DNA of 34,992 bases. Origin: Acetofilamentum sp. (GTDB lineage: Bacteria; Bacteroidota; Bacteroidia; Bacteroidales; DYOH01). Under the pieces are notes generated by a model that searched no databases, was not told the DNA's origin, and was given only the letters and a program-made list of their open reading frames with translations. Of the stretch, positions 10,501-32,257 are shown piece by piece (positions within the stretch are counted from its first letter, which is position 1; each line of letters opens with the position of its first letter). The position numbers were made by a program, and so were the translations under genes. The stretch is taken from contig DYOH01000035.1 in NCBI GenBank assembly GCA_020720625.1, positions 1 through 34,992 on the forward strand. The letters run 5' to 3'.

Positions 10501-12474
10501 TTAAACCCTGATTCCAATCACCATTACATCATCAACCTGATGATAAGACTGGCGCCAATTGTCAATTGTTTCTTCTAATGCATCGCGCTGCTCGTCAATA
10601 TTTTTTGAATGTATTTGTAGCAGAAGCTCCTGAAAATTTTTCTTCAGGAATTTTCTGTTTTTGGGGCCGCCAAATTGATCCACATAACCATCAGAAAATA
10701 AGTAAACAATATCGTTTTCCTGAATTTTAAAAACATGGTTATTGAAAGTTTTTCCTGGATTATCGTAGTAGGAGCCAACCGCAAGCCGGTCGGCTTTAAT
10801 TTCTATTAATTCATTATTCCTGATAATATAAAGCGGATTATAGGCCCCAGCGAATTGTAATTCCATCGCACTAAAATCGAATCGGCAGAGCACCATGTCC
10901 ATTCCGTCTTTTATGGCGTATTTTCTGTTTGTATTATGTCTTACAGTGTCGGCAACTCTTTTGTTAAGGGTATTTAATATTTCGGCAGGGCATTCGTTTT
11001 TGATAATATTAACTGCATAATCAAGCTGGTTGTATCCTACAATACTCATAAAGGCTCCAGGAACACCGTGCCCCGTGCAGTCTACTGCCGCTGCAAATAC
11101 AAAATTATCTCTTTTTTCAAACCAATAGAAATCGCCCGAAACAATATCTTTGGGTCTATAAAATATAAATGACTCAGGCAGAATAGACCTAACATATTCA
11201 TTCGAAGGCAAAATAGACGTTTGTATTCTGCTTGCATAATGAATGCTATCCATAATGGCATTCTGTTGTTGTTCAATTTGTTCTTTTTTTGCGCTTATTT
11301 CTGCGGTCCTTAATCGTACTTTTTCTTCTAGTTCGCTGTAGTAATCTTCAAGTTGTTCAAGCATGAGATTAAAATGCTCAGATAATCTTGTAATTTCATT
11401 GTTTCCAATTATTTCGGCTCTATCGTTTAAATTTAGTTCCCGAATTCTGTTTACATTAGAAACGAGTTTTTTAATTGGGCTTGTAATAACTTTTGTTTTG
11501 TTGAAAATTAACCAAATAACTATGGCGATGGTAATTCCAAAAATTGAAAGGAATTTTATTATCTCTGTTTTATACATTTGCCGCTCTTCGTCTGTCGATT
11601 GCTTAATAAAGATTATTGCAGCAGGATAGAGGGTTGTATTTTCGCGGTTCATGAAAATATACTGATTTCTGCAAACTTGATTATTTTCCTCGGTTAAGAA
11701 ACTGGTATTATTTTGATTGGAAAAAGTGTTCATTAATTGCAGCTTTTGGGGTGAATTATCCGGAACAATTTTGCTGCTAAGCAGAGAGAATGGTTTGTCG
11801 GCTCCAATATATAAATCAATGTCGGTAATTCCTGAATTTCGTTTTATGGATAATAGTTGTTTTCTGGAGAAATCAAGTATGGAATCGGCCATCGAAGAAT
11901 AAAATCCGGTTTCTATAATGTATTTTTTGTCGGGAGTTGCGCAGTATGAGTATTTTTTGATTCTTCCGGTTGCCATCTCCATTGAAAATCTTTCGTTAAT
12001 AATTTTTTGAGAGTCGACAATACTAATCAAAAAGTTTTTAAAAGTAATACCAAAATCAAAAACATTTTTGGAAGAATCGGGTGCAAAAGTGGTATTTTCA
12101 ATAATTCCGGTTTTTGCATTAATTAGATAAATGTCAAAATTATATGGCTCTTGATTAAGTTTTTCTCGTAAGGGGTTTAAATCGCCAATAAGCAGTTGTT
12201 TCGGATTGGATTTATAAATTTCGAGCAAGAGTAATGTAATATCCGAAATTTTACTATTTACTTGATTTTCTAATATGTTGAGCGATAAATCCTGATATTC
12301 TAAAATTCCTTTTACCTGGTCGGCAATAAGCGTTTTTTTAGAGTTGTTGTACATTTTCAAGCCATTGTAGGTATGTATTAGGTTTAAAACGGCAATACTT
12401 ACTAATGCAATAACTACTGGAATTACAATATTGAAAATCAACTGTCTGAAAATGGTCGTTTTTTTAATAGCCAT
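10501..12474 (-). CDS. Membrane sensor SpoIIE/PP2C-type serine/threonine phosphatase (SiaA-like architecture)
   Basis: The 657-residue product has membrane helices near 11-33 and 302-322 flanking an extracytoplasmic sensor of about 270 residues. A HAMP domain follows (about 325-380), then a coiled-coil linker with SIHYASRIQTSILPS, then a PP2C-like SpoIIE domain (about 434-656). Metal-binding acidic motifs are visible: SGDFYW, AVDCTGHGVPGA, FSDGYVDQFGG and the closing VDDVMVIG. Such enzymes dephosphorylate Ser/Thr on STAS or SiaC-type partners. The order sensor-HAMP-PP2C is that of Pseudomonas SiaA, and siaB/siaC-like genes lie 5.6 kb away, so it is one candidate opposing phosphatase. It starts 9 bases after the NTT-like gene stop in the same operon. 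Confidence 0.9.
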   Translation of the reverse strand: MAIKKTTIFRQLIFNIVIPVVIALVSIAVLNLIHTYNGLKMYNNSKKTLIADQVKGILEYQDLSLNILENQVNSKISDITLLLLEIYKSNPKQLLIGDLNPLREKLNQEPYNFDIYLINAKTGIIENTTFAPDSSKNVFDFGITFKNFLISIVDSQKIINERFSMEMATGRIKKYSYCATPDKKYIIETGFYSSMADSILDFSRKQLLSIKRNSGITDIDLYIGADKPFSLLSSKIVPDNSPQKLQLMNTFSNQNNTSFLTEENNQVCRNQYIFMNRENTTLYPAAIIFIKQSTDEERQMYKTEIIKFLSIFGITIAIVIWLIFNKTKVITSPIKKLVSNVNRIRELNLNDRAEIIGNNEITRLSEHFNLMLEQLEDYYSELEEKVRLRTAEISAKKEQIEQQQNAIMDSIHYASRIQTSILPSNEYVRSILPESFIFYRPKDIVSGDFYWFEKRDNFVFAAAVDCTGHGVPGAFMSIVGYNQLDYAVNIIKNECPAEILNTLNKRVADTVRHNTNRKYAIKDGMDMVLCRFDFSAMELQFAGAYNPLYIIRNNELIEIKADRLAVGSYYDNPGKTFNNHVFKIQENDIVYLFSDGYVDQFGGPKNRKFLKKNFQELLLQIHSKNIDEQRDALEETIDNWRQSYHQVDDVMVIGIRV

Positions 12475-12483
12475 AATAAATAA

Positions 12484-15400
12484 TTAAAGATGTTCGGAGA
12501 ATGATATTAATTCGAAAAAGTTTCTGTCGCGAGAAACTAACTGATTAATAGCCAAATCATTAAAATGAATAAATTCAGTATTGGCATCATACTTCATTTT
12601 AAAAGTTTTTTTGTTCGACAATGTCAAATATGTACCCGATCCGGTTTTAGAAAGCTCGGCAATTTTCGAAAATTCATTGTAGAACGAAATTTTTCCTTTT
12701 AGCAGAAGTAAAAATATTTGTCTGTCGTAATGATTATAATTCATTTCGGTTTCTTCAGTAGTAACTTTATACTCTGCAAATTCAAACCATTTTATTAATT
12801 GCGCTTCATTAAAATTGAAATTTATGAATAATTTTTTTAAGAACAAAGTAAGATGAAATATATTTGACAGCGGAAATAGTTTTGATTCCTCTATAAGTTT
12901 TTCTGCCTCTGTTCTTTGTTGAAAGTTAAATCGTTCTAAGACGGATTTAAAGTATGCCGGATTTTTTTGATATAGAACAATAAGCGCTGTTTTTTTCAGA
13001 ATTTTATCCGGATTAAAAACATGGGCAAGTAGTTCGTTGGAGTAATCTGTAGTTTCGTCTTCGAGCATAGCCATGATTGTGCACAAAATAGTCCATCTGC
13101 TCAGTTGATTAGCGCCTCTGCTTAGTAACGAAATTAGTAAAGGATTATCCATAATGCTAATGGTGAAAAATTCCGAGAGGGTGGTAATTTTTTCTTCTAC
13201 CAGAATATCGTCGAGTAAGGGAAAAAGTATAGGCTTTATTTCTTCGTCTATAAATAAATCCATAAGTTCTATAGCAAAACCTATTTCTTCCGAATTTTGG
13301 GATTCAATATTACTTTTAATTTGATTAATTGAGCTTTTATCGTATCTAATAGATAGTAATGAAAACAATTCGTTAAAAGCTTTTTTTATTTCTTGCTTTA
13401 AAGCAAGTCTTAAATATTCCGGAAGGTTTGCGGCTTGTCTTTTTGCTTCTAAGTTCCAGGAGTAAAGTTGCGCTTTTTGTTCTACTGCCTGCTGAAATTC
13501 TCTGAATTTATTTTCCGGTATCTTTACGTCCAATGTAGTTAAGGTTTCAATAATTTTTATGGCAATATTTCGGTGATAGAAATTAAACTGCGAAAGTAAA
13601 AAGTTTATGCTCTCGGGTGCAGCAATTTTGCTTATTAAATTGGTAATTATTTCTAAACGGGCAGGTTTATCAATGTATTTCTGAAAAGTCATTGTTAATA
13701 GTGGAACTGCTTTATAGCCAATCTCTAATATTGAATTTTCAGCATATACAGAGTATAATGGGTTTTGTAAATCATCTATTAGAAGTCTAATAATTTCGTC
13801 GTGCGGATAAAAGGCAGATGAAATAATGGCTTCTTTTTTTATTTGTGGGTTAAGCTCTCTTAGGCATAATATTAAAACCGGAAGATATAGATTATTTGGT
13901 TTATATCTAAAATACTTACAAATAAGGCTTATTTCGCTTACATTTCCTTCTTTTAATTTGGCAAAAAATGCATCTAGGTTAATTATTCTTGGCAGCATGG
14001 CCTTTAGCTGATTAACTGTGTATAGTGTTTTTTCTGCCAGTTCTTTGTTTGTTAGGCTTGGATAAATTTTTTCTAAAGGTTCTATTGATTTTATAACTTT
14101 ATTCTCAAGTATTTCATCAAGAAATGCATTTAATTTTCTATCGGGCAAATTTGCCAGAGCTCCTGTGGTTTGATGTTCGTAGAGCAATGGATTACTTACT
14201 TTTAAAAACAATCTATCTACTTCGTTTTTTTTGTTGATATTAGTATTGGGTTGAGATATATCGTAATCTTGTGATTCGAAGCTACTTAGAGTTTCTTGCA
14301 GCGATACTTTATAATTTCTGTAAAGTCGCAAACCCGATAAAATCCATAGCAATAAGAAAATAATAAGTGTATAAACAAATCCTACAAGTTCAAAAATAAA
14401 ACCAAAGCCCATTAGTATTAGACCGGCACTTAATGCGGCTAATTCATTTACAGTTCCGTCTATTTTTGCCTGAATATCGTGTCTTATATTGGGTGATAGC
14501 GACTGATAAAGAGTTTTAAAGGCAGGGATTTCGATGGCATCTCTAACCGACATCGAAAACAAACGCGACATGGATAACAACAGAAAAACCAATACGAATG
14601 CATTTTCGGCTGAGTGGTAAACAAAAATAATAATTGAACTAAGAATTACTAAGAGCACTGGTAAAATAAGTAAAGCCACCCTTAATCCATAAGACTTTAG
14701 TAATTTGCTGAAAACAAATGTTTTAAGTAGAAAACCAAATATCATCATAGTACCTGTAAAAATGCCCAGGAAACTTTTCATATCTTGTTCTTCCGGATAT
14801 TGCTTTTGAGCTGCTGCAAGGAAAGTATAGGCAACAAAGAATAAAACAATCATGGAGAGAACAACATAGATTGTCATGCTGTTTATATATTTGTTTTTTA
14901 AAAAAACTTTTAATCCGGTACCCGATTTTTTTGCAGAGCTAGATTTTGAAGCACTTTCGGGAATCGTTTCTAACCTGACTAAAAAAAATTGAGAAATTGC
15001 TGCAAATAGAAGATTTATGGCGCCCACTAGAATTAAATCATAGGTACTAATATTTAGCTTTAATGCATTTATAATCGGTATGGCATAGCTAATGAGAATA
15101 GTTCCAAAAATCTGACCGGAGCCAATTAATCCAAATAACCTTTTGCCTTGCCTTAACGAAAAGAGACGACCTACAATTCCCCAAAAATTTACGATTGCTA
15201 CAATATTTAATGGACCAAGTAGAATAAAGACCAGAAAAATAATCTCTCTCGAAGTGCCAAATTTTTCGAAACCAAGCCATAAAGTAAGCGTAATTATCGA
15301 AAGAACTATAATAGATGCAACAGATAATGTTCTGAATCGAATTTTTTGTTGAAATTTACTGTAAATAAAAGTTAGTATTATACCTGCAACTCCCGATATA

Positions 15401-15579
15401 GAGTAGGCCTGAGCTATCATGGCTTCTTCAAACTCCTGCAAAAAAAGGGTATGGGCACTAATATCAAATGCACCGTAAAATAAACCCAAAAACAAAGATT
15501 GCGTAAGCAAAAGAACAACACTTCTTAGCTCCTTACGTTCAATATTAAAAGCATCTAATAATCTTTGATTTTGCACCAT
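12484..15579 (-). CDS. NTT-like major-facilitator transporter fused to HEAT repeats
   Basis: The 1031-residue protein starts with about 12 membrane helices (residues 20-430) resembling the ATP/ADP translocase (NTT/Npt) branch of the major facilitator superfamily. Examples are FWGIVGRLFSLRQGKRLFG and LIGSGQIFGTILIS. A soluble region of roughly 450 residues of HEAT-like helical repeats follows (about 460-900). The C-terminal segment (about 940-1031, IFLLLLKGKISF and later helices) could be a degenerate cyclic-nucleotide-binding-like fold. NTT proteins fused to HEAT and cNMP-type domains are known in free-living bacteria; their substrates are mostly unproven. The downstream SpoIIE phosphatase is probably co-transcribed, hinting at a sensory rather than parasitic nucleotide-uptake role. 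The fold call is fairly secure; the substrate is unknown. Confidence 0.7.
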   Translation of the reverse strand: MVQNQRLLDAFNIERKELRSVVLLLTQSLFLGLFYGAFDISAHTLFLQEFEEAMIAQAYSISGVAGIILTFIYSKFQQKIRFRTLSVASIIVLSIITLTLWLGFEKFGTSREIIFLVFILLGPLNIVAIVNFWGIVGRLFSLRQGKRLFGLIGSGQIFGTILISYAIPIINALKLNISTYDLILVGAINLLFAAISQFFLVRLETIPESASKSSSAKKSGTGLKVFLKNKYINSMTIYVVLSMIVLFFVAYTFLAAAQKQYPEEQDMKSFLGIFTGTMMIFGFLLKTFVFSKLLKSYGLRVALLILPVLLVILSSIIIFVYHSAENAFVLVFLLLSMSRLFSMSVRDAIEIPAFKTLYQSLSPNIRHDIQAKIDGTVNELAALSAGLILMGFGFIFELVGFVYTLIIFLLLWILSGLRLYRNYKVSLQETLSSFESQDYDISQPNTNINKKNEVDRLFLKVSNPLLYEHQTTGALANLPDRKLNAFLDEILENKVIKSIEPLEKIYPSLTNKELAEKTLYTVNQLKAMLPRIINLDAFFAKLKEGNVSEISLICKYFRYKPNNLYLPVLILCLRELNPQIKKEAIISSAFYPHDEIIRLLIDDLQNPLYSVYAENSILEIGYKAVPLLTMTFQKYIDKPARLEIITNLISKIAAPESINFLLSQFNFYHRNIAIKIIETLTTLDVKIPENKFREFQQAVEQKAQLYSWNLEAKRQAANLPEYLRLALKQEIKKAFNELFSLLSIRYDKSSINQIKSNIESQNSEEIGFAIELMDLFIDEEIKPILFPLLDDILVEEKITTLSEFFTISIMDNPLLISLLSRGANQLSRWTILCTIMAMLEDETTDYSNELLAHVFNPDKILKKTALIVLYQKNPAYFKSVLERFNFQQRTEAEKLIEESKLFPLSNIFHLTLFLKKLFINFNFNEAQLIKWFEFAEYKVTTEETEMNYNHYDRQIFLLLLKGKISFYNEFSKIAELSKTGSGTYLTLSNKKTFKMKYDANTEFIHFNDLAINQLVSRDRNFFELISFSEHL

Positions 15580-18067: not shown

Positions 18068-18607
18068 ATGAGCGAAGAAAAATTTAGTCTGTATAATTAT
18101 CATAAAACCTTTGATAAAGATATACTTATCTCATTTAAAGGTCCTTTCGATAAGCATATTCTATCAATCATTGGAAACTACATAGAAGTAATTCTGGGTA
18201 GGAATCCCAAAGCCGGAAAAAAAATATTTAAAATATTTATAGAACTGGCGCAAAATATAGCATACTATTCGGCAGAAGGAATAACTAATGTTAATTCTGA
18301 TGCAGGCATAGGAACTTTGGTAATAGGCGAATTTGACAATCATTATTCATTTGTGGCCGGAAATGTGGTTAAGGCGAGCGATATTGTTCATATCATCGAA
18401 AAAAGCGAAATCATTAACTCACTCGACAGAGAAGGTTTACGCCAGTATAAGAGAGAACAACGCAATATGCCTCAGGGTGAGAAAGGAAGTGCTCATATTG
18501 GGCTTATTCAGGTGGCACTTACAGCAGCAAGTCCGCTTGATATCGAAGTAACACCTATAAATGAAGAGTATTCATTTTTTACTATTTCTGTTAATGTAGA
18601 AAAATAA
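18068..18607 (+). CDS. SiaB-like (DUF6272) protein kinase
   Basis: This 179-residue protein has a GHKL-like ATPase fold. It shows an N-box-like segment IFIELAQNIAYYS (Glu59, Asn63) and a glycine motif GEKGSAHIGL near 139-148. It matches the SiaB family protein kinases (DUF6272). In Pseudomonas aeruginosa SiaB phosphorylates SiaC on a threonine, and the PP2C phosphatase SiaA reverses it. The gene directly behind it encodes a SiaC-like protein, supporting the assignment. ATG 18068 is chosen because the family begins just before FSLYNYHKTF. An in-frame ATG at 18038 and a GTG at 18023 are alternatives. It is transcribed with siaC1 and ends 11 bases before that ATG. Confidence 0.82.
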   Translation: MSEEKFSLYNYHKTFDKDILISFKGPFDKHILSIIGNYIEVILGRNPKAGKKIFKIFIELAQNIAYYSAEGITNVNSDAGIGTLVIGEFDNHYSFVAGNVVKASDIVHIIEKSEIINSLDREGLRQYKREQRNMPQGEKGSAHIGLIQVALTAASPLDIEVTPINEEYSFFTISVNVEK

Positions 18608-18618
18608 AAATATTGTTC

Positions 18619-19002
18619 ATGGAAAATTTAGAAATAAAGGGTTCTCGCGATGTTTATTTTATTCCATCGGTAGATTTTAACGTTGAGAACGGCATTTGTG
18701 TATTGGGCGGTGAATCTTATCTCGAAGAAACAGTTAAGTTTTATATGCCGCTTTACGAATGGCTAAAAAAATATACCAGTGAAGTAAAGAGACCTGTTGA
18801 ATTTAACTTTAAACTGACTTACTTTAATACAAGTTCTTCTCGCTGTATTCTGGATATATTAAATATTCTGAAAGATTTTGAAGAAAATGGTGGAGACGTT
18901 AAAGTAAACTGGTATTACGATTCGGAGGATACCGATATGGAAGAGGAAGTTGAAGATTATATGATCGAGTCGGAGTTAAAAATTAATTTAATTCCAACCT
19001 GA
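18619..19002 (+). CDS. SiaC-like (DUF1987) phosphoprotein, copy 1
   Basis: The 127-residue protein has the STAS/anti-sigma-antagonist-like SiaC fold (DUF1987). The conserved FKLTYFNTSSSR motif holds Thr71, the position that aligns by motif with the phosphorylated Thr68 of Pseudomonas SiaC. It has an acidic patch near 101-113 (DSEDTDMEEE). It is predicted to be phosphorylated by the upstream SiaB-like kinase and dephosphorylated by a SpoIIE-type phosphatase. Its output partner is unknown here because no diguanylate cyclase is present. ATG 18619 is preferred to the in-frame TTG at 18613. A strong terminator follows. Confidence 0.85.
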   Translation: MENLEIKGSRDVYFIPSVDFNVENGICVLGGESYLEETVKFYMPLYEWLKKYTSEVKRPVEFNFKLTYFNTSSSRCILDILNILKDFEENGGDVKVNWYYDSEDTDMEEEVEDYMIESELKINLIPT

Positions 19003-19027
19003 TTTATTGCATCAATCAGAATCCAGG

Positions 19028-19061
19028 AAGCAATTACTCTGTAGTTGCTTTTATTTTTATT
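19028..19061 (+). terminator. Intrinsic terminator after siaB-siaC1
   Basis: The 10-bp stem AAGCAATTAC / GTAGTTGCTT (one G-T pair) with a three-base loop TCT is followed by a T-rich tract (TTATTTTTATT). It lies 26 bases after the siaC1 stop, so siaC2 probably has its own promoter. Confidence 0.75.
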
Positions 19062-19176
19062 GGTAGAAAATGCATTTTTTCATTTTTTTTTATCTAAAAA
19101 AAATGAAAGGCGTGGTTTTTGATATATGTTTATTCATTAGGGATGTTTTTTTTTACAATATTTCAACATAAAAAAA

Positions 19177-19563
19177 ATGAAAGAATTAGTAATCAGCGGT
19201 AATAGAACTATTCCAACCATTAATTTTAATGCACAACATAATCAGTTCTTAATTGAGGGCAGGTCTTGCCCCGAAGATGTAGCTACATTTTATAAACCAG
19301 TTTTGGATTGGTTAGAAGAGTACCAGGTGAACCCAAACGAAGCAACTGTTTTTGAATTTAAGCTCATATATTTTAATACGGCAACGGCAAAATTATTGCT
19401 CACAATTATGCAAAAAATTGAGCAGATTTATAATACTGGAGCTGATGTTTCAATAAAATGGTATTTTCCCGACGACGACGAAGATCTCGAAGAAACTGGT
19501 CAGGATTATCAGGATATGATAGATGTTCCTTTTGAATTGATTGCTTATCCTTTTGAAGATTAG
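19177..19563 (+). CDS. SiaC-like (DUF1987) phosphoprotein, copy 2
   Basis: This 128-residue paralogue of the preceding SiaC-like protein shares the same layout: an N-terminal strand, FYKPVLDWLEEY, then FKLIYFNTATAK with Thr68 at the predicted phosphorylation site, then an acidic DDDEDLEE stretch. Sequence divergence between the copies is considerable, especially at the N-terminus and in the acidic tail, suggesting different partners. It is cut off from siaB-siaC1 by a terminator and a 174-base spacer. Its stop codon overlaps the stop of the convergent CheA-type kinase by four bases. Family membership is secure; its kinase and output are inferred. Confidence 0.85.
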   Translation: MKELVISGNRTIPTINFNAQHNQFLIEGRSCPEDVATFYKPVLDWLEEYQVNPNEATVFEFKLIYFNTATAKLLLTIMQKIEQIYNTGADVSIKWYFPDDDEDLEETGQDYQDMIDVPFELIAYPFED

Positions 19564-21593
19564 TACTCTTTAAGTAATTTTATTACATCAATTATAAAGG
19601 CTAGGCTGCCATCACCCAAAATGGTGGCCCCGCTAAATAAATTATTATTACCAAATACTTCACCTAAAGGTTTTATTACTGCTTGGTGCTCTCCAAATAT
19701 TTGATCTACCTCCAATGCATAATGTTTATCGGTATATTGTAGCACTATGATTCGGCTTTTTTTCGACGAAAGTTGTTTCAAACTTAGCACTTTTGCTAGA
19801 TTTATTAATGGAATTAATCTCCCGTTATATTCGTAATTGTTTTGAATTGCCGTAATTTTTTTCTCCTCGTTTATTATTTCGCAAGAATCTATAAAACTCA
19901 GCGGTATGATTAAATTTTGGTTCGATAGTTTTACATGCAATGAGTCTATAATAGAAAGCGTTAAGGGTAATTTTAGCGTTACGCTTGTACCTAAATCAAT
20001 TTCCGAATCTATTTCTATTTCGCCCCTCAAATCCGATATGTTTTGTTTCACAACGTCCATACCAACACCTCTGCCCGAGATTTCTGTAACTTTTTTGGCT
20101 GTTGTAAATCCAGGCAAAGTAATTAGATTGTATATCTCTTTTCTGCTTAGCTTTATACTTTTATCAATAAAGCCTTTTTCAATGGCTATCTGATGAATTA
20201 CATCCGGATTTATTCCTTTACCGTCGTCCTGAACCTGTATAAATACGTTAGTGCCTGAATAAAAGGCGATAAAACGCACAATACCTTTTGGTGATTTACC
20301 TTTTGCAATGCGTTCTTTTTCTGTCTCAATTCCATGATCTATGCTGTTTCTTATAATGTGCATTAATGGCCCTTCGAGATTGTTTATAATAGTTTTATCT
20401 AATTCTGTATCTGCACCTTCAACAACAAAGTCAATTTTTTTATCTAAGTCTCGTGCCAAATCGTGCACTAACCTATTAAGCCTAACCAAAATGGTGTTTA
20501 GCGGTACAAGCCTTATGTTCAGAACAATATCTCTAAAATTGCGTGATATTTTGTTTACATTTTCAACAAGCTCGTCCATTAACAAGTAGTTTTGCTCTGC
20601 ATGAAAAAGTTCTAATCGTGAGCCTATTATAACAAGTTCGCTAACCAGATTCATTAATTCGTCTAGTTGTGTTGCCGGAACACGCACTGAATCCTGGGTT
20701 GTGGATTTATGTAAGAGTTGATTAACCGTCTTTATCGATTCTTTTCTTTTCTCTTCTTCAACAATTAATTCAACAACTACATTTTTCTCTGCACTTAAGG
20801 CCTCTGCTTTTTCTTTTATCTCTTTTAAATGCTGTTTGGCTTCTTTCTCGTCTTTATATAGCAATTTATTTTTCAGTAGCGAAAGCAATTCCTTGTTTTT
20901 CTCAATTTGAGCAGGCTGAATCGGAAGTATAATAAATTCGTCTTCTAAGAAGAACATAAAAACATCTTCAATACTCTCCGCATTTTCAGTGGCAAGTAAG
21001 ATTTCCCAGTTGAGATAGAGATTAGTAGGTTCAAAATCTTCGAAATTAGGCAGATTCCTTTTTATTATCTCAATCTGGTAATTTCCAAGTTCCTGAATTT
21101 CTTCTAAAGTAGCTTCAAGGTTAACGCCTCGTTTAAATGTTGATGTATTGGGGGTAAGCAAAACATAGAAAAAATTTGACTGCTCCGATTCCTGCTTTTT
21201 TGAAATTTCACTCCGCTTTTCAATTTCTGCCATATCGGCATATTGAATAATTCTATCGAATTCTTTTTTTAGATTTTCGTCTAATTGATCGTCGGAGGTA
21301 AGTAAATAATTTATTAAATCAACTGAAATAAATGTATTTTGTAGAATATCAATATCCAGAAGTAATTTATTTGAACGAATTTCATCGTAAATATTTTCTA
21401 AGGCATGAGTTAATCGTCCTACATTATCAAATCCATACATTCCGGCAGTGCCCTTTAATGTGTGCATTGTGCGAAATACTTTTTCTATGATTTGTGGATT
21501 ATCCGATGATTTTTCTAGTTCCAAGAGGCTTGTTTCTAATTCATTCACAAGGTCTTTGGCATCTTCAATAAATTTCTTCTTAAATTCTTCCAT
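19560..21593 (-). CDS. cheA: CheA-type histidine kinase
   Basis: The 677-residue cytoplasmic kinase has the CheA domains in order: an Hpt/P1 domain with phospho-acceptor His44 (RTMHTLKGTAGMYGF); a P2-like domain (about 138-230, VLLTPNTSTFKRGVNL); a linker; a P3 dimerisation helix pair starting near DSVRVPATQLDELMNLV; a P4 ATPase with N-box HIIRNSIDHG (about 410-420), G1 QDDGKG and G2 GRGVGMDVV; and a CheW-like P5 domain from about 549. Such kinases normally take input through CheW from receptors, but none is in the window. The kinase starts 13 bases after the CheY stop in the same operon and is convergent with siaC2. The missing receptor and adjacent Sia genes suggest a role outside classical flagellar chemotaxis (inference). 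Confidence 0.92.
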   Translation of the reverse strand: MEEFKKKFIEDAKDLVNELETSLLELEKSSDNPQIIEKVFRTMHTLKGTAGMYGFDNVGRLTHALENIYDEIRSNKLLLDIDILQNTFISVDLINYLLTSDDQLDENLKKEFDRIIQYADMAEIEKRSEISKKQESEQSNFFYVLLTPNTSTFKRGVNLEATLEEIQELGNYQIEIIKRNLPNFEDFEPTNLYLNWEILLATENAESIEDVFMFFLEDEFIILPIQPAQIEKNKELLSLLKNKLLYKDEKEAKQHLKEIKEKAEALSAEKNVVVELIVEEEKRKESIKTVNQLLHKSTTQDSVRVPATQLDELMNLVSELVIIGSRLELFHAEQNYLLMDELVENVNKISRNFRDIVLNIRLVPLNTILVRLNRLVHDLARDLDKKIDFVVEGADTELDKTIINNLEGPLMHIIRNSIDHGIETEKERIAKGKSPKGIVRFIAFYSGTNVFIQVQDDGKGINPDVIHQIAIEKGFIDKSIKLSRKEIYNLITLPGFTTAKKVTEISGRGVGMDVVKQNISDLRGEIEIDSEIDLGTSVTLKLPLTLSIIDSLHVKLSNQNLIIPLSFIDSCEIINEEKKITAIQNNYEYNGRLIPLINLAKVLSLKQLSSKKSRIIVLQYTDKHYALEVDQIFGEHQAVIKPLGEVFGNNNLFSGATILGDGSLAFIIDVIKLLKEY

Positions 21594-21606
21594 GAATAGG
21601 GTATGC

Positions 21607-21975
21607 TTATTTAATACATTTTTCTATTACTGCTAAAAACTTTTCCATTTTAAATGGTTTCTGTATCCATCCCGTTACCGAAGCGTCTCTGGCTAATTCC
21701 TTTTTCTTCGAGTCTGTTTCTGTAGTTAGCATCAATATTGGCAAATACTTGTATTTGTCAATGGCTCTTACTTTGTGAGTAAGTTCTATTCCATCTATTC
21801 CGGGCATGTTTAAATCTGTAACCAACAAATCGATAGTTCTTCCGTCGAAAAGTTTTAATGCATCTTCTCCGTTGTTGGCTTTCAATACATTGTATCCATT
21901 GTTTTTCAAAGTAAATTCAACAACAAATAGCGTATTTTCAAAATCGTCCACTACAACTATTGTTTTTTTTTCCAT
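21607..21975 (-). CDS. Single-domain CheY-like response regulator
   Basis: The 122-residue receiver domain alone has the acidic pocket Asp10-Asp11 (VVVDDFENT), phospho-acceptor Asp54 (LLVTDLNMPGIDG), Thr84/Thr85 (MLTTETD) and Lys106 (WIQKPFK). There is no output domain, so it acts by protein-protein contact or as a phosphate sink. It is first in a two-gene operon with the CheA-type kinase, which is its probable phosphodonor. Confidence 0.93.
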   Translation of the reverse strand: MEKKTIVVVDDFENTLFVVEFTLKNNGYNVLKANNGEDALKLFDGRTIDLLVTDLNMPGIDGIELTHKVRAIDKYKYLPILMLTTETDSKKKELARDASVTGWIQKPFKMEKFLAVIEKCIK

Positions 21976-23339: not shown

Positions 23340-25181
23340 ATGTTTAGAATTCGAATCGCCATAATTCTTTTACTTGCAATCTCGGTAACTTCGATAAGTA
23401 AAACTTCTGCCCAAAAGGACACTGCATCATTAATAAATTTGCTTGAAACAATAGGCGAGCCCGAAAAAGCGCAGGTATATTGTCAGTTAGCAGAAATTGT
23501 TATGCTTACAAATGTAAAAATTGCATTAGATTATGCTGATAAAGCTTATAAAATTGCCAAGCAGTATAATAATACAAAATGTCTGATTCATGCAACAGAT
23601 ATTTTAGCTAATTTACATTTATTAAACAACAACCTCAAAAAATCGGAAGACTATTACCTCGAAGAAATTAAGTTATTGGAAACGGAAAAAGATTCTTTTG
23701 GTCTTGCACTAAGTTATTACAACCTTGGGAAAGCCAATTACGTAAGCAATAAAATCAGGAAGGCTATAAAATATTTTGAGACGAGCCAACAAATTGCTTC
23801 AAAAAGAAATTTGCTTGATTTGATTTTAAAGAATAACGAAATATTATTTACCATTCATTATAACGAGGGAAAATATAAAGATGCATTTTTCTATTTCAAG
23901 GATTATGTAAAAATAAAAGACTCTACAATTCTTACTAAGCAAAAAAATGAATACGAAGTACTGATGCGAAATTTTTCTTATGCCATAGACACTGCACAAG
24001 AAAAGCTCCAGGCCAAAGATGAGGCCTTGATGCGCAAAGATTCTACTCTTTCAGTGCTTAGTTTGCAAAAAGATACTTTAGAAGAAGTATCTAAGGCTCA
24101 AGGCGAAGAGATTAAAACACTCAATTACGAAAAGGCTTATCAGCAACAGTTGATTGATAAACAACGAATGCAACGTAACTTTTTGGTTACCATATCTATT
24201 TTTGTTTTGTTTCTCCTTTTTGGTTTATACAGTCGTTTTCTATTTAAAAAGAAGGCCAATGCCCAATTGCTGATACAAAATAATATGATAACTCAGCAAA
24301 AGGAGGAAATTGAGGCGCAGAGAGATAACCTCGAAGAACTTAATCACGAACTCGAACAACAAAAAGAAGAAATTATAGCCCAAAGAGATGAATTACAAGA
24401 CCAAAAGCTTATAATTGAGCACAAGAACGATAATATTACCGCAAGCATTAGATATGCAAAAAGAATACAAACGGCAGCCCTTCCATCGGTAACAATGTTC
24501 GAGAATTTTTTCAAAGATTATTTTATACTATTCAAGCCAAGGGATATTGTTTCAGGAGATTTTTACTGGCTTAAGAAGGTCGAAAATCGAATTTTTGTTA
24601 CTGTAGCAGATTGCACAGGACATGGAGTGCCGGGTGCTTTTGTTAGTATGCTCGGAATTTCTATGCTCAACGAGGTTTGCAGCAGAAATCCGCATTGGAA
24701 TGCTGCACAGGTTTTAAATCAGTTAAGGATCTTGATAAAAACTTCTTTAAACCAAAACGATACTGATTCGGATTCTAAAGACGGCATGGATATGGCTTTA
24801 TGTGTAATTGAGCCTGAAACCAAAACAATACATTTTTCTGGGGCTAATAATCCTCTATTTTTAGTAAGAGACAATGAATTAATGATATATAAAGCCTCAC
24901 GAAACCCGGTGGCAGTATATATTAAGGAGCATGATTTCGAAAATTATACTTTTAAATACCAAGAAAATGATATGATTTACTTGTTCTCCGATGGTTTTCC
25001 TGACCAGTTTGGCGGATCTGATGCCCAAAAATACAAAATATCCCGGTTCAAAACCCTTATTTCTGAGATCAACCGGCAAAATTGTTCGCTTCAAATGCAA
25101 GCCATGGAAAAAGAACTATTGCGCTGGATGGGAAATACCGATCAGATAGACGATATTACTGTTCTTGGAATTAGGTTGTAA
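23340..25181 (+). CDS. Periplasmic-TPR SpoIIE/PP2C-type phosphatase
   Basis: The 613-residue protein has a signal peptide or first helix (about 6-24, ending TSAQK), a periplasmic TPR array (about 40-200) and a coiled coil. A membrane helix follows near 281-302, then a cytoplasmic coiled coil rich in QQKEEI and QRDEL repeats and the linker SIRYAKRIQTAALPS. The SpoIIE/PP2C domain is at about 394-612. The metal ligands lie in SGDFYW, VADCTGHGVPGA, FSDGFPDQFGG and IDDITVLG. It is expected to relay a protein- or peptide-binding signal outside to dephosphorylation of a cytoplasmic Ser/Thr phosphoprotein. The two SiaC-like proteins 4-5 kb away are candidate substrates. It is followed after 23 bases by a T9SS cargo gene. 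Confidence 0.9.
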   Translation: MFRIRIAIILLLAISVTSISKTSAQKDTASLINLLETIGEPEKAQVYCQLAEIVMLTNVKIALDYADKAYKIAKQYNNTKCLIHATDILANLHLLNNNLKKSEDYYLEEIKLLETEKDSFGLALSYYNLGKANYVSNKIRKAIKYFETSQQIASKRNLLDLILKNNEILFTIHYNEGKYKDAFFYFKDYVKIKDSTILTKQKNEYEVLMRNFSYAIDTAQEKLQAKDEALMRKDSTLSVLSLQKDTLEEVSKAQGEEIKTLNYEKAYQQQLIDKQRMQRNFLVTISIFVLFLLFGLYSRFLFKKKANAQLLIQNNMITQQKEEIEAQRDNLEELNHELEQQKEEIIAQRDELQDQKLIIEHKNDNITASIRYAKRIQTAALPSVTMFENFFKDYFILFKPRDIVSGDFYWLKKVENRIFVTVADCTGHGVPGAFVSMLGISMLNEVCSRNPHWNAAQVLNQLRILIKTSLNQNDTDSDSKDGMDMALCVIEPETKTIHFSGANNPLFLVRDNELMIYKASRNPVAVYIKEHDFENYTFKYQENDMIYLFSDGFPDQFGGSDAQKYKISRFKTLISEINRQNCSLQMQAMEKELLRWMGNTDQIDDITVLGIRL

Positions 25182-30256: not shown

Positions 30257-32257
30257 ATGCTCAAAAAATTCAAGGCGCAATTATATGCTATCACCCTTTC
30301 ATTTTCTGTGGTAAGTCTTTTTTTATTGTTTTTTGCATCGTTACATCATCAGAATAGACAAAAAATACTGAATAGAAATTTTCAGTTGAAAGAAGTTCAA
30401 AAATTGGTGATTCAAGATAATTATTATTTGGGCTCTTTTCTATTGAACGAATCAGCAACGCCGGAGTTTTATCTAAATCAAAACAGTTATTATTTCGTTC
30501 TGCATCAAAAGATTAATGGTCAATTAGGCGATTATCTCACGGAATTGGCTAACGAATCTGTAGATGAATATTGGGTAGATTCTTTTTCAGTTATTAGAGA
30601 TTCTATTCACTCCGGTTTTTTAAAGCTAATAGATTTGCAAATTCAACGTGGTTTTCAGGATTATGGTATGGAAGGTAAAATGCGTCAGGAAATTCATCAT
30701 ATTGAGCAAGAGGGAACTATTGATAAGGCTTTGGTGCTAATGCTGCGCCGACACGAAAAAGACTATATCATCAGACATCAGCAAAAATACATCGACAAAC
30801 ATCAGGAGCTTATGAATGAAGCACTGATAGAGTACGATAATATAAATCCGGTGGTTTATGTAAGCTTAATAAATTATGCCCTGTATTTTGAGCAATTGAT
30901 AGAACTTGACAAGCAAATTGGTCGTATGGGTACTCAAGGGCTTGTTCCACAGCTTAATGCGAATTTTAAGAAAGCTGAATTGCTCATTAATGGTGTGATT
31001 CATAATAATAATATGCAAATGGAACGTTTGCTGGTGGTATACCGATATTCCTATTGGTCGGTTGTAGTTGTATTTTTCGCTGTAATGATTTTTATAAGTG
31101 TTTACATTAGCAACCGAGCATCGAGGCAGCTTCACTTTTTGGGTAATGCCATCAATACTTTTGTTCGGAGTGGGTTTAAAAAGACAACAGAGGTTTCTTA
31201 TAAGGAAAATCATAATGAAATTCACACACTTACAAAAAATTTTACCATCCTACAAAGTGAAATTCTTGATTATATTCAATCTTTTGAGGAGAAAGTAGAT
31301 GAACAAACATTTGAGCTGCGATTACAGAAGAAGGAGATTGTTGAGCAAAATACCGAAATTTTGGCGCAACGCGATAAGATGCAAGAGCAGGTTGATTTAA
31401 TTTCTTATCAACACAAACAATTAGAAACTTACAATACAAGGTTAACCGACAGTATTTTCTACGCCAAACATATTCAACAAGCATTATTACCATCAAAAGA
31501 AATTTTGGACGAGGCTTTTTCGTCTAATTTTATCTATTTTGTGCCAAAGGACGTATTAAGCGGCGATTATTATTGGCTGAAACAGAGTAAAGTGGCATCT
31601 AAGGTTTGCATTGCTGTGGCAGATTGCACAGGGCATGGTGTTCCGGGTGCATTGCTTAGCATGTTGGGTATTAGTTTTATGAACGAAATTTTTAATTCCG
31701 GAGAGAATTGTTCTCCTGCGGTGATGCTGAACCAGCTCAGAAATAGGATTTTAGATGTAATGACAAACACTCAGACCAAAAAATCGCTCAATGATGGCAT
31801 GGATATTGGCTTGGCCGAAATAGATTATTCTCGCAATAAACTTATTTTTGCCGGTGCCAATAGGGATGTATACATTATTCGCGATAATGAATTAATTGTA
31901 ATGAAAGGGGATAATATGCCGGTGGGAAAATATGTGATAAGCAGGCCATTTGTCCAGCGTGAGTTTCAATTGCAAGACGGCGACAATATTTATTTGTTTA
32001 CAGATGGTTACAACGATCAGTTTGGTGGAACGAAAAATGAGAAATTTAAGCGAAAAAATTTTAAAAAATTGCTATTGGCCGTTCAGTCCTTATCTTTTGA
32101 AGAACAACTGGATATTATCAACAGAATGCATAAACAGTGGCGAAAAGACAGGTTTCAGATAGATGATATACTGATTATTGGATTTCAGTATAATGCCAAT
32201 CATTTACAGGAAATGAACAAGGAAAGGGCAAAATTGGCGGAAAAAGCTGTGAGTTGA
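30257..32257 (+). CDS. Membrane sensor SpoIIE/PP2C-type phosphatase with HAMP-like linker
   Basis: The 666-residue protein has a first helix near 9-28, an all-helical extracytoplasmic sensor of about 230 residues (rich in Gln/Glu/His, four-helix-bundle-like), and a second helix near 264-285. A HAMP-like segment, a coiled coil (about 340-400) with SIFYAKHIQQALLPS, and a SpoIIE/PP2C domain (about 422-645) follow. Metal-site motifs are intact: SGDYYW, VADCTGHGVPGA, FTDGYNDQFGG and IDDILIIG. Like the 10501 gene it has SiaA-type topology, but the sensor is unrelated in sequence. It is followed after 25 bases by ybjQ. It is one of three candidate phosphatases for the SiaC-like proteins. Confidence 0.9.
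   Translation: MLKKFKAQLYAITLSFSVVSLFLLFFASLHHQNRQKILNRNFQLKEVQKLVIQDNYYLGSFLLNESATPEFYLNQNSYYFVLHQKINGQLGDYLTELANESVDEYWVDSFSVIRDSIHSGFLKLIDLQIQRGFQDYGMEGKMRQEIHHIEQEGTIDKALVLMLRRHEKDYIIRHQQKYIDKHQELMNEALIEYDNINPVVYVSLINYALYFEQLIELDKQIGRMGTQGLVPQLNANFKKAELLINGVIHNNNMQMERLLVVYRYSYWSVVVVFFAVMIFISVYISNRASRQLHFLGNAINTFVRSGFKKTTEVSYKENHNEIHTLTKNFTILQSEILDYIQSFEEKVDEQTFELRLQKKEIVEQNTEILAQRDKMQEQVDLISYQHKQLETYNTRLTDSIFYAKHIQQALLPSKEILDEAFSSNFIYFVPKDVLSGDYYWLKQSKVASKVCIAVADCTGHGVPGALLSMLGISFMNEIFNSGENCSPAVMLNQLRNRILDVMTNTQTKKSLNDGMDIGLAEIDYSRNKLIFAGANRDVYIIRDNELIVMKGDNMPVGKYVISRPFVQREFQLQDGDNIYLFTDGYNDQFGGTKNEKFKRKNFKKLLLAVQSLSFEEQLDIINRMHKQWRKDRFQIDDILIIGFQYNANHLQEMNKERAKLAEKAVS

Follow-up and report, generated by a model that had tools for sequence, protein, structure and literature searches.

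A SiaB-SiaC partner-switch locus beside a CheA-CheY pair in a Bacteroidales genome without GGDEF domains, and a candidate exporter-type output

The stretch of DNA analyzed here (the window) comprises positions 1 to 34,992 of contig DYOH01000035.1 from Acetofilamentum sp., order Bacteroidales (GenBank assembly GCA_020720625.1), and encodes a SiaB-family serine/threonine kinase and two SiaC-family phosphoproteins whose genes run convergently into a cheA-cheY pair. The explanation that accounts best for this locus, and which we regard as probable, is a partner switch of the SiaABC type with an output other than a diguanylate cyclase, in which the second phosphoprotein, SiaC2, ties the locus to an exporter-type output. 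More broadly, across much of the order a particular type of SiaC is linked to CheR and CheB and to a specific ATP-binding cassette (ABC) exporter. Together with the presence of up to approximately 20 SiaC copies in genomes without a GGDEF protein, this makes a role of SiaC beyond cyclases directly testable, by asking whether the exporter is the partner of unphosphorylated SiaC.

Components of the partner switch

In Pseudomonas aeruginosa, SiaB phosphorylates SiaC, a SpoIIE phosphatase removes the phosphate in response to a signal, and the unphosphorylated SiaC binds its target (PMC7647112, PMC8457831). The window kinase gene, siaB, lies at 18068-18607 on the plus strand, and its product matches NF038262 (SiaB_fam_kinase) at 127.9 bits and PF19788 (DUF6272) at 115.6 bits, the respective cut-offs being 85 and 26.6 bits. 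Family membership is established through NF038262; against NF038264, the Pseudomonas equivalog, the score falls short of the cut-off. Furthermore, the family profile matches the solved P. aeruginosa SiaB (6kko_A) with E = 1.2e-13, and the GHKL-type N-box (E59, N63) is aligned. On the same strand follow siaC1 (18619-19002) and siaC2 (19177-19563), whose products match PF09345 at 137.4 and 130.8 bits, respectively (cut-off 24.5 bits). The SiaC profile matches the solved P. aeruginosa SiaC (6kko_C, 6k4f) at 6e-23, and phospho-Thr68 of that protein, at the start of helix 2, aligns with the predicted phosphorylation sites Thr71 of SiaC1 and Thr68 of SiaC2. The original prediction, made from the sequence of the window, of a SiaB-like kinase with two SiaC proteins that keep the phosphorylated threonine is therefore borne out.

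Within the window, SiaA is matched best by the phosphatase encoded at 10501-12474 on the minus strand, which possesses a HAMP domain (35.4 bits) and a SpoIIE/PP2C domain (PF07228, 65.8 bits); it matches NF038263 at 236 bits over residues 300-657, spanning both domains, a score below the equivalog cut-off. This siaA-like gene is 5.6 kb from siaB, so that kinase, phosphatase, and the two SiaC substrates together span approximately 9 kb. With a HAMP-SpoIIE phosphatase, a SiaB kinase, and SiaC proteins carrying the phospho-threonine in a Y-x-N-T motif, the set resembles SiaABCD of P. aeruginosa (PMC7647112, PMC8457831). It differs from that system in having no SiaD or other GGDEF protein, two dissimilar SiaC proteins, a phosphatase gene that stands apart, an adjoining cheA-cheY pair, and the loss of most of the other contacts with SiaD. 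By analogy, the phosphatase would sense a signal and dephosphorylate SiaC1 at Thr71, SiaB would re-phosphorylate SiaC1, and the target would be bound by unphosphorylated SiaC only.

With 33% identity and membership in different SiaC groups, SiaC1 and SiaC2 are not products of a local tandem duplication; a recent local duplication was considered and was ruled out by this identity and by the trees. SiaC1 clusters with the SiaC proteins of spoIIE-siaB-siaC modules, its exact position being poorly supported in the second of two trees. SiaC2 is nested among SiaC proteins linked to an ABC exporter, with ultrafast bootstrap (UFBoot) support of 97 in one tree and 83 in the second, which holds more sequences; inner nodes are weaker. 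It is 50-54% identical to SiaC proteins of other families whose genes lie directly upstream of the exporter (loci L184 and L195). SiaC2 may thus represent a captured member of a SiaC type found elsewhere directly upstream of an ABC exporter, and its relatives suggest that it is most likely a second substrate, phosphorylated at Thr68, that links the locus to an exporter-type output. Modules with two SiaC genes exist in other families as well, the second SiaC being of a different kind.

Absence of GGDEF domains and the exporter operon of the SiaC2 group

The genome assembly measures 3.8 Mb and is 98.5% complete; a profile search for GGDEF domains found none in it, nor in 40 relatives. The output is therefore not a diguanylate cyclase, and the original claim that it must differ from SiaD holds for the entire genome. 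In an order-wide survey of 393 genomes (149 with SiaB and 244 without), GGDEF matches occurred in 17; among the SiaB-positive genomes, 143 had none and only 6 had a match. The cyclase is missing from most of the order, and its absence is therefore not a peculiarity of the window locus. SiaC itself is present in 29 of 60 relatives, at up to 21 copies per genome, and the source genome holds 11 SiaC matches and 10 matches to the SiaB-family domain PF19788, and hence more than one set. SiaC has been characterized through its activation of a diguanylate cyclase; for such proteins, an eLife study proposes a role in modulating adjacent proteins (PMC8457831).

Relatives of SiaC2 are encoded in a widespread, recurrent operon with the order cheR-(PAS protein)-cheR-cheB-GAF-spoIIE-siaB-siaC-ABC exporter-lipoprotein-secreted protein, in which the SpoIIE protein has a GAF-PAS-PP2C architecture. 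The exporter, of approximately 1030 amino acids, combines TerB-like, ABC ATPase, and ABC-2 membrane parts; the lipoprotein (approximately 305 amino acids) and the secreted protein (approximately 145) were labeled from their N-terminal sequences, and neither matches Pfam. The operon is found at L184:2137-13368, at L104, L185, and L188, at most of L229-L246, and elsewhere in the class (L247, L248). The source genome itself has a version without cheB on contig C120 (L072), comprising the spoIIE-siaB-siaC-ABC part. A literature search of partial coverage found no description of a cheR-cheB-spoIIE-siaB-siaC-ABC operon.

The exporter is present in 144 of 149 SiaB-positive genomes versus 15 of 244 SiaB-negative ones, counts that, like the other co-occurrence counts, take genomes as independent though they are related by descent. 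Among the 30 best exporter loci, SiaB adjoins in all 30 and SiaC in 28. The link extends to chemosensory genes: cheB is found in 18 of the approximately 26 operons with enough flanking sequence, and at 21 of 35 ABC-linked SiaC loci compared to 2 of 41 others, where the two represent a single place sampled twice. Family f30 adds four genomes in which the operon is preceded, on the same strand, by a complete mcp-cheA-cheW-cheR-cheD-cheB cluster. Judged by this gene association, an ABC exporter is the leading candidate for the output of the SiaC2 type. The original prediction had looked for the output in CheA/CheY, secretion, or gliding; across relatives, the candidate that recurs is instead the exporter, and the operon that encodes it is probably more important than the window locus. 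In some loci (L071:6576-10721, L190, and L193), a second exporter paralogue faces siaB-siaC convergently instead of following it on the same strand.

The adjoining CheA-CheY pair and alternative explanations

As predicted, a convergent cheA (19560-21593, minus strand) and a lone cheY (21607-21975, minus strand) follow the sia genes, and the 3' ends of siaC2 and cheA overlap by 4 bases. CheA is intact, with Hpt (His44), dimerization, HATPase, and CheW-like domains and the HATPase motifs in place, and CheY is a single-domain response regulator that keeps Asp54. The cheY-cheA order is that of ordinary Bacteroidales clusters (cheY-cheA-cheW-cheR-histidine kinase-cheD-cheB, as at L089), whose CheA proteins are 40-49% identical to that of the window. 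Unlike in those clusters, the window cheA has no adjoining cheW, cheR, cheB, or gene for a methyl-accepting chemotaxis protein (MCP), and siaC2 occupies the place of cheW. The description of this CheA as receptor-less is correct for its own locus and not for the genome, in which MCPs and CheW are present at two other cheA loci (contigs C10 and C81); CheA is receptor-less locally only. The pair could accordingly act as an intact chemosensory branch, which would have to borrow receptors and CheW from the other two che loci.

The arrangement was followed in three genomes of the family, representing two genera: the source genome, G001 of the same genus (L082), and G002 of the other genus (L083). 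The order siaB-siaC1-siaC2 // cheA-cheY is kept in all three, and it was not seen in any other family in the order-wide survey, so the predicted neighborhood is conserved within the family and nowhere else surveyed. SiaB is 94% identical in G001 and 73% in G002, and CheY 93% and 67.5%, respectively; in G002, SiaC1 is 79% and SiaC2 64% identical. On the siaB side, the siaA-like gene and its neighbor at 12484-15579 are also syntenic. Conservation of the block within the family is thus real, resting on three genomes. Proximity of SiaB to CheA was tried as evidence of linkage and was dropped: the two lie within 5 kb of each other in this family and in family f56, hence in two lineages, whereas genome sizes and copy numbers predict approximately 1.35 by chance. 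Taken by itself, adjacency is therefore weak evidence.

These observations bear on three other explanations. In the first, the SiaC pair would still serve to activate a diguanylate cyclase, as in Pseudomonas, with the cyclase gene located elsewhere. This would agree with the retention of the phospho-threonine and its Y-x-N-T context, yet it is exceedingly improbable given the GGDEF-free genome and the alteration of most other residues that contact SiaD. Of the 14 SiaC contact residues in the crystal structure (PMC8457831), both window proteins retain Y65, N67, and T68, SiaC1 alone also retains Y31 and S69, and the rest are changed, for example R103 to D and L107 to E or T. A second explanation, to which we assign only slightly less than an even chance, is that the SiaABC switch and the CheA-CheY pair are independent modules that stand side by side by descent and have no functional contact. 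The order would then be kept in one family because its members are related, and its restriction to that family, the near-chance proximity, and the convergence of siaC2 and cheA, without a common promoter, are all as expected. The same is true of SiaB proteins of the same clade outside the family (54-64% identity, approximately 17 genomes), which mostly belong to spoIIE-siaB-siaC(-siaC) modules without cheA. However, the block from spoIIE to cheY has been kept in G002 despite only 49% identity in CheA and a break in synteny just past cheY, CheA and SiaB co-occur (89 of 99 CheA-positive genomes carry SiaB), and relatives of SiaC2 are encoded with cheR and cheB.

The latter association, with the f30 clusters and the juxtaposition conserved in the family, also favors the circuit originally proposed, in which one of the two SiaC proteins contacts CheA or CheY (or the switch instead takes its input from CheA/CheY), placing the chemosensory branch under the gating of the switch. 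The closest precedent for such a joining of chemosensory genes and partner switch is Che1-CrsR-CrsA-RpoS of Shewanella oneidensis, in which the two are likewise encoded together (PMC9855816). There, however, the regulator CrsR and the anti-sigma factor antagonist CrsA act on RpoS from a single che locus (PMC9855816), whereas here the proteins are of the SiaC family, the genes are convergent, and there is no known sigma target. Since adjacency across the order is no higher than chance, the arrangement is confined to one family, and no fusion of SiaC to a Che protein occurs among the loci surveyed, this circuit, with its putative direct contact between SiaC and CheA, appears unlikely. The suspected sia-che link itself stands in part: SiaC is repeatedly encoded with chemosensory genes in the order, but the recurrent partners are cheR and cheB, not cheA and cheY.

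Several points weigh against the reading we prefer, that of a SiaABC-type switch with SiaC2 tied to an exporter-type output. The siaA-like gene shares no operon with siaB and siaC here, the literature search turned up neither phosphorylation nor binding of a SiaC protein from Bacteroidota, the co-occurrence counts disregard shared ancestry, and the SiaC2 branch has moderate support (66-97, according to the tree and the node considered). In addition, the window contains no ABC exporter, SiaC2 sharing a clade with exporter-linked SiaC proteins; an exporter output for SiaC2 is therefore based solely on its ancestry. A wider and more tentative model, which we consider rather doubtful, is that in Bacteroidales without diguanylate cyclases, phospho-regulated SiaC gates the ABC exporter under control of the CheR/CheB type. 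The window would then be a derived node, in which an exporter-type SiaC2 moved beside CheA-CheY and a second kinase-SiaC pair, bridging both branches.

Transcription signals, flanking genes, and other sia arrangements

A terminator-like hairpin of 12 pairs with a T-rich tail (19026-19052, plus strand; z -3.12) lies 3' of siaC1. A homologous hairpin is present in the sister species (G001; z -3.10), and none is evident at the G002 locus. As the hairpin separates siaC1 from siaC2, siaC2 is likely a separate transcript, and siaB-siaC-siaC is probably not one simple transcript. The Bacteroidota-type promoter pattern matched six times in the window, compared to 3.7 expected, and never ahead of siaB, siaC2, or cheY; sigma-70-like sites were fewer than the shuffled expectation.

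The gene at 12484-15579 (minus strand) immediately precedes the siaA-like gene in the same orientation and encodes a membrane protein of 1031 amino acids with a weak domain of the major facilitator superfamily type (PF07690, 35.6 bits) and a long C-terminal region; the pairing is kept in all three family genomes. Together with the siaA-like protein, two further SpoIIE proteins account for the three predicted in the window. One, with a TPR N-terminus, is encoded at 23340-25181 (plus strand), beyond cheY and in divergent orientation to it, and is found at that place in G001 but not in G002; the other is a profile match at 30257-32257 (plus strand). Across the survey, SpoIIE, called with a specific profile, is within 3 kb of 59 of 96 SiaC copies.

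The suggestion that che clusters end with a SpoIIE phosphatase was discarded, the 760-amino-acid protein that first clustered with SpoIIE being a GAF-PAS protein without SpoIIE according to Pfam. Family f56 offers an independent che/sia juxtaposition at L096:8208-18949, where a che cluster with a GAF-PAS protein gene at its end is met convergently by siaC and a double siaB. Tandem SiaB-SiaB kinases of approximately 370 amino acids followed by a separate siaC are found there (L096:17864-18949) and at L074:8491-9612. At L077:5697-7250 (contig C80 of G000), SiaB, SiaB, and SiaC are fused into one chain of 518 amino acids, which supports a direct link between kinase and substrate, and other families possess open frames near this size that hold SiaB-family domains. 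Finally, L153-L156 carry siaB-siaC-siaB-siaC-siaC arrays, in several genomes with a separate SiaC subgroup for each position.

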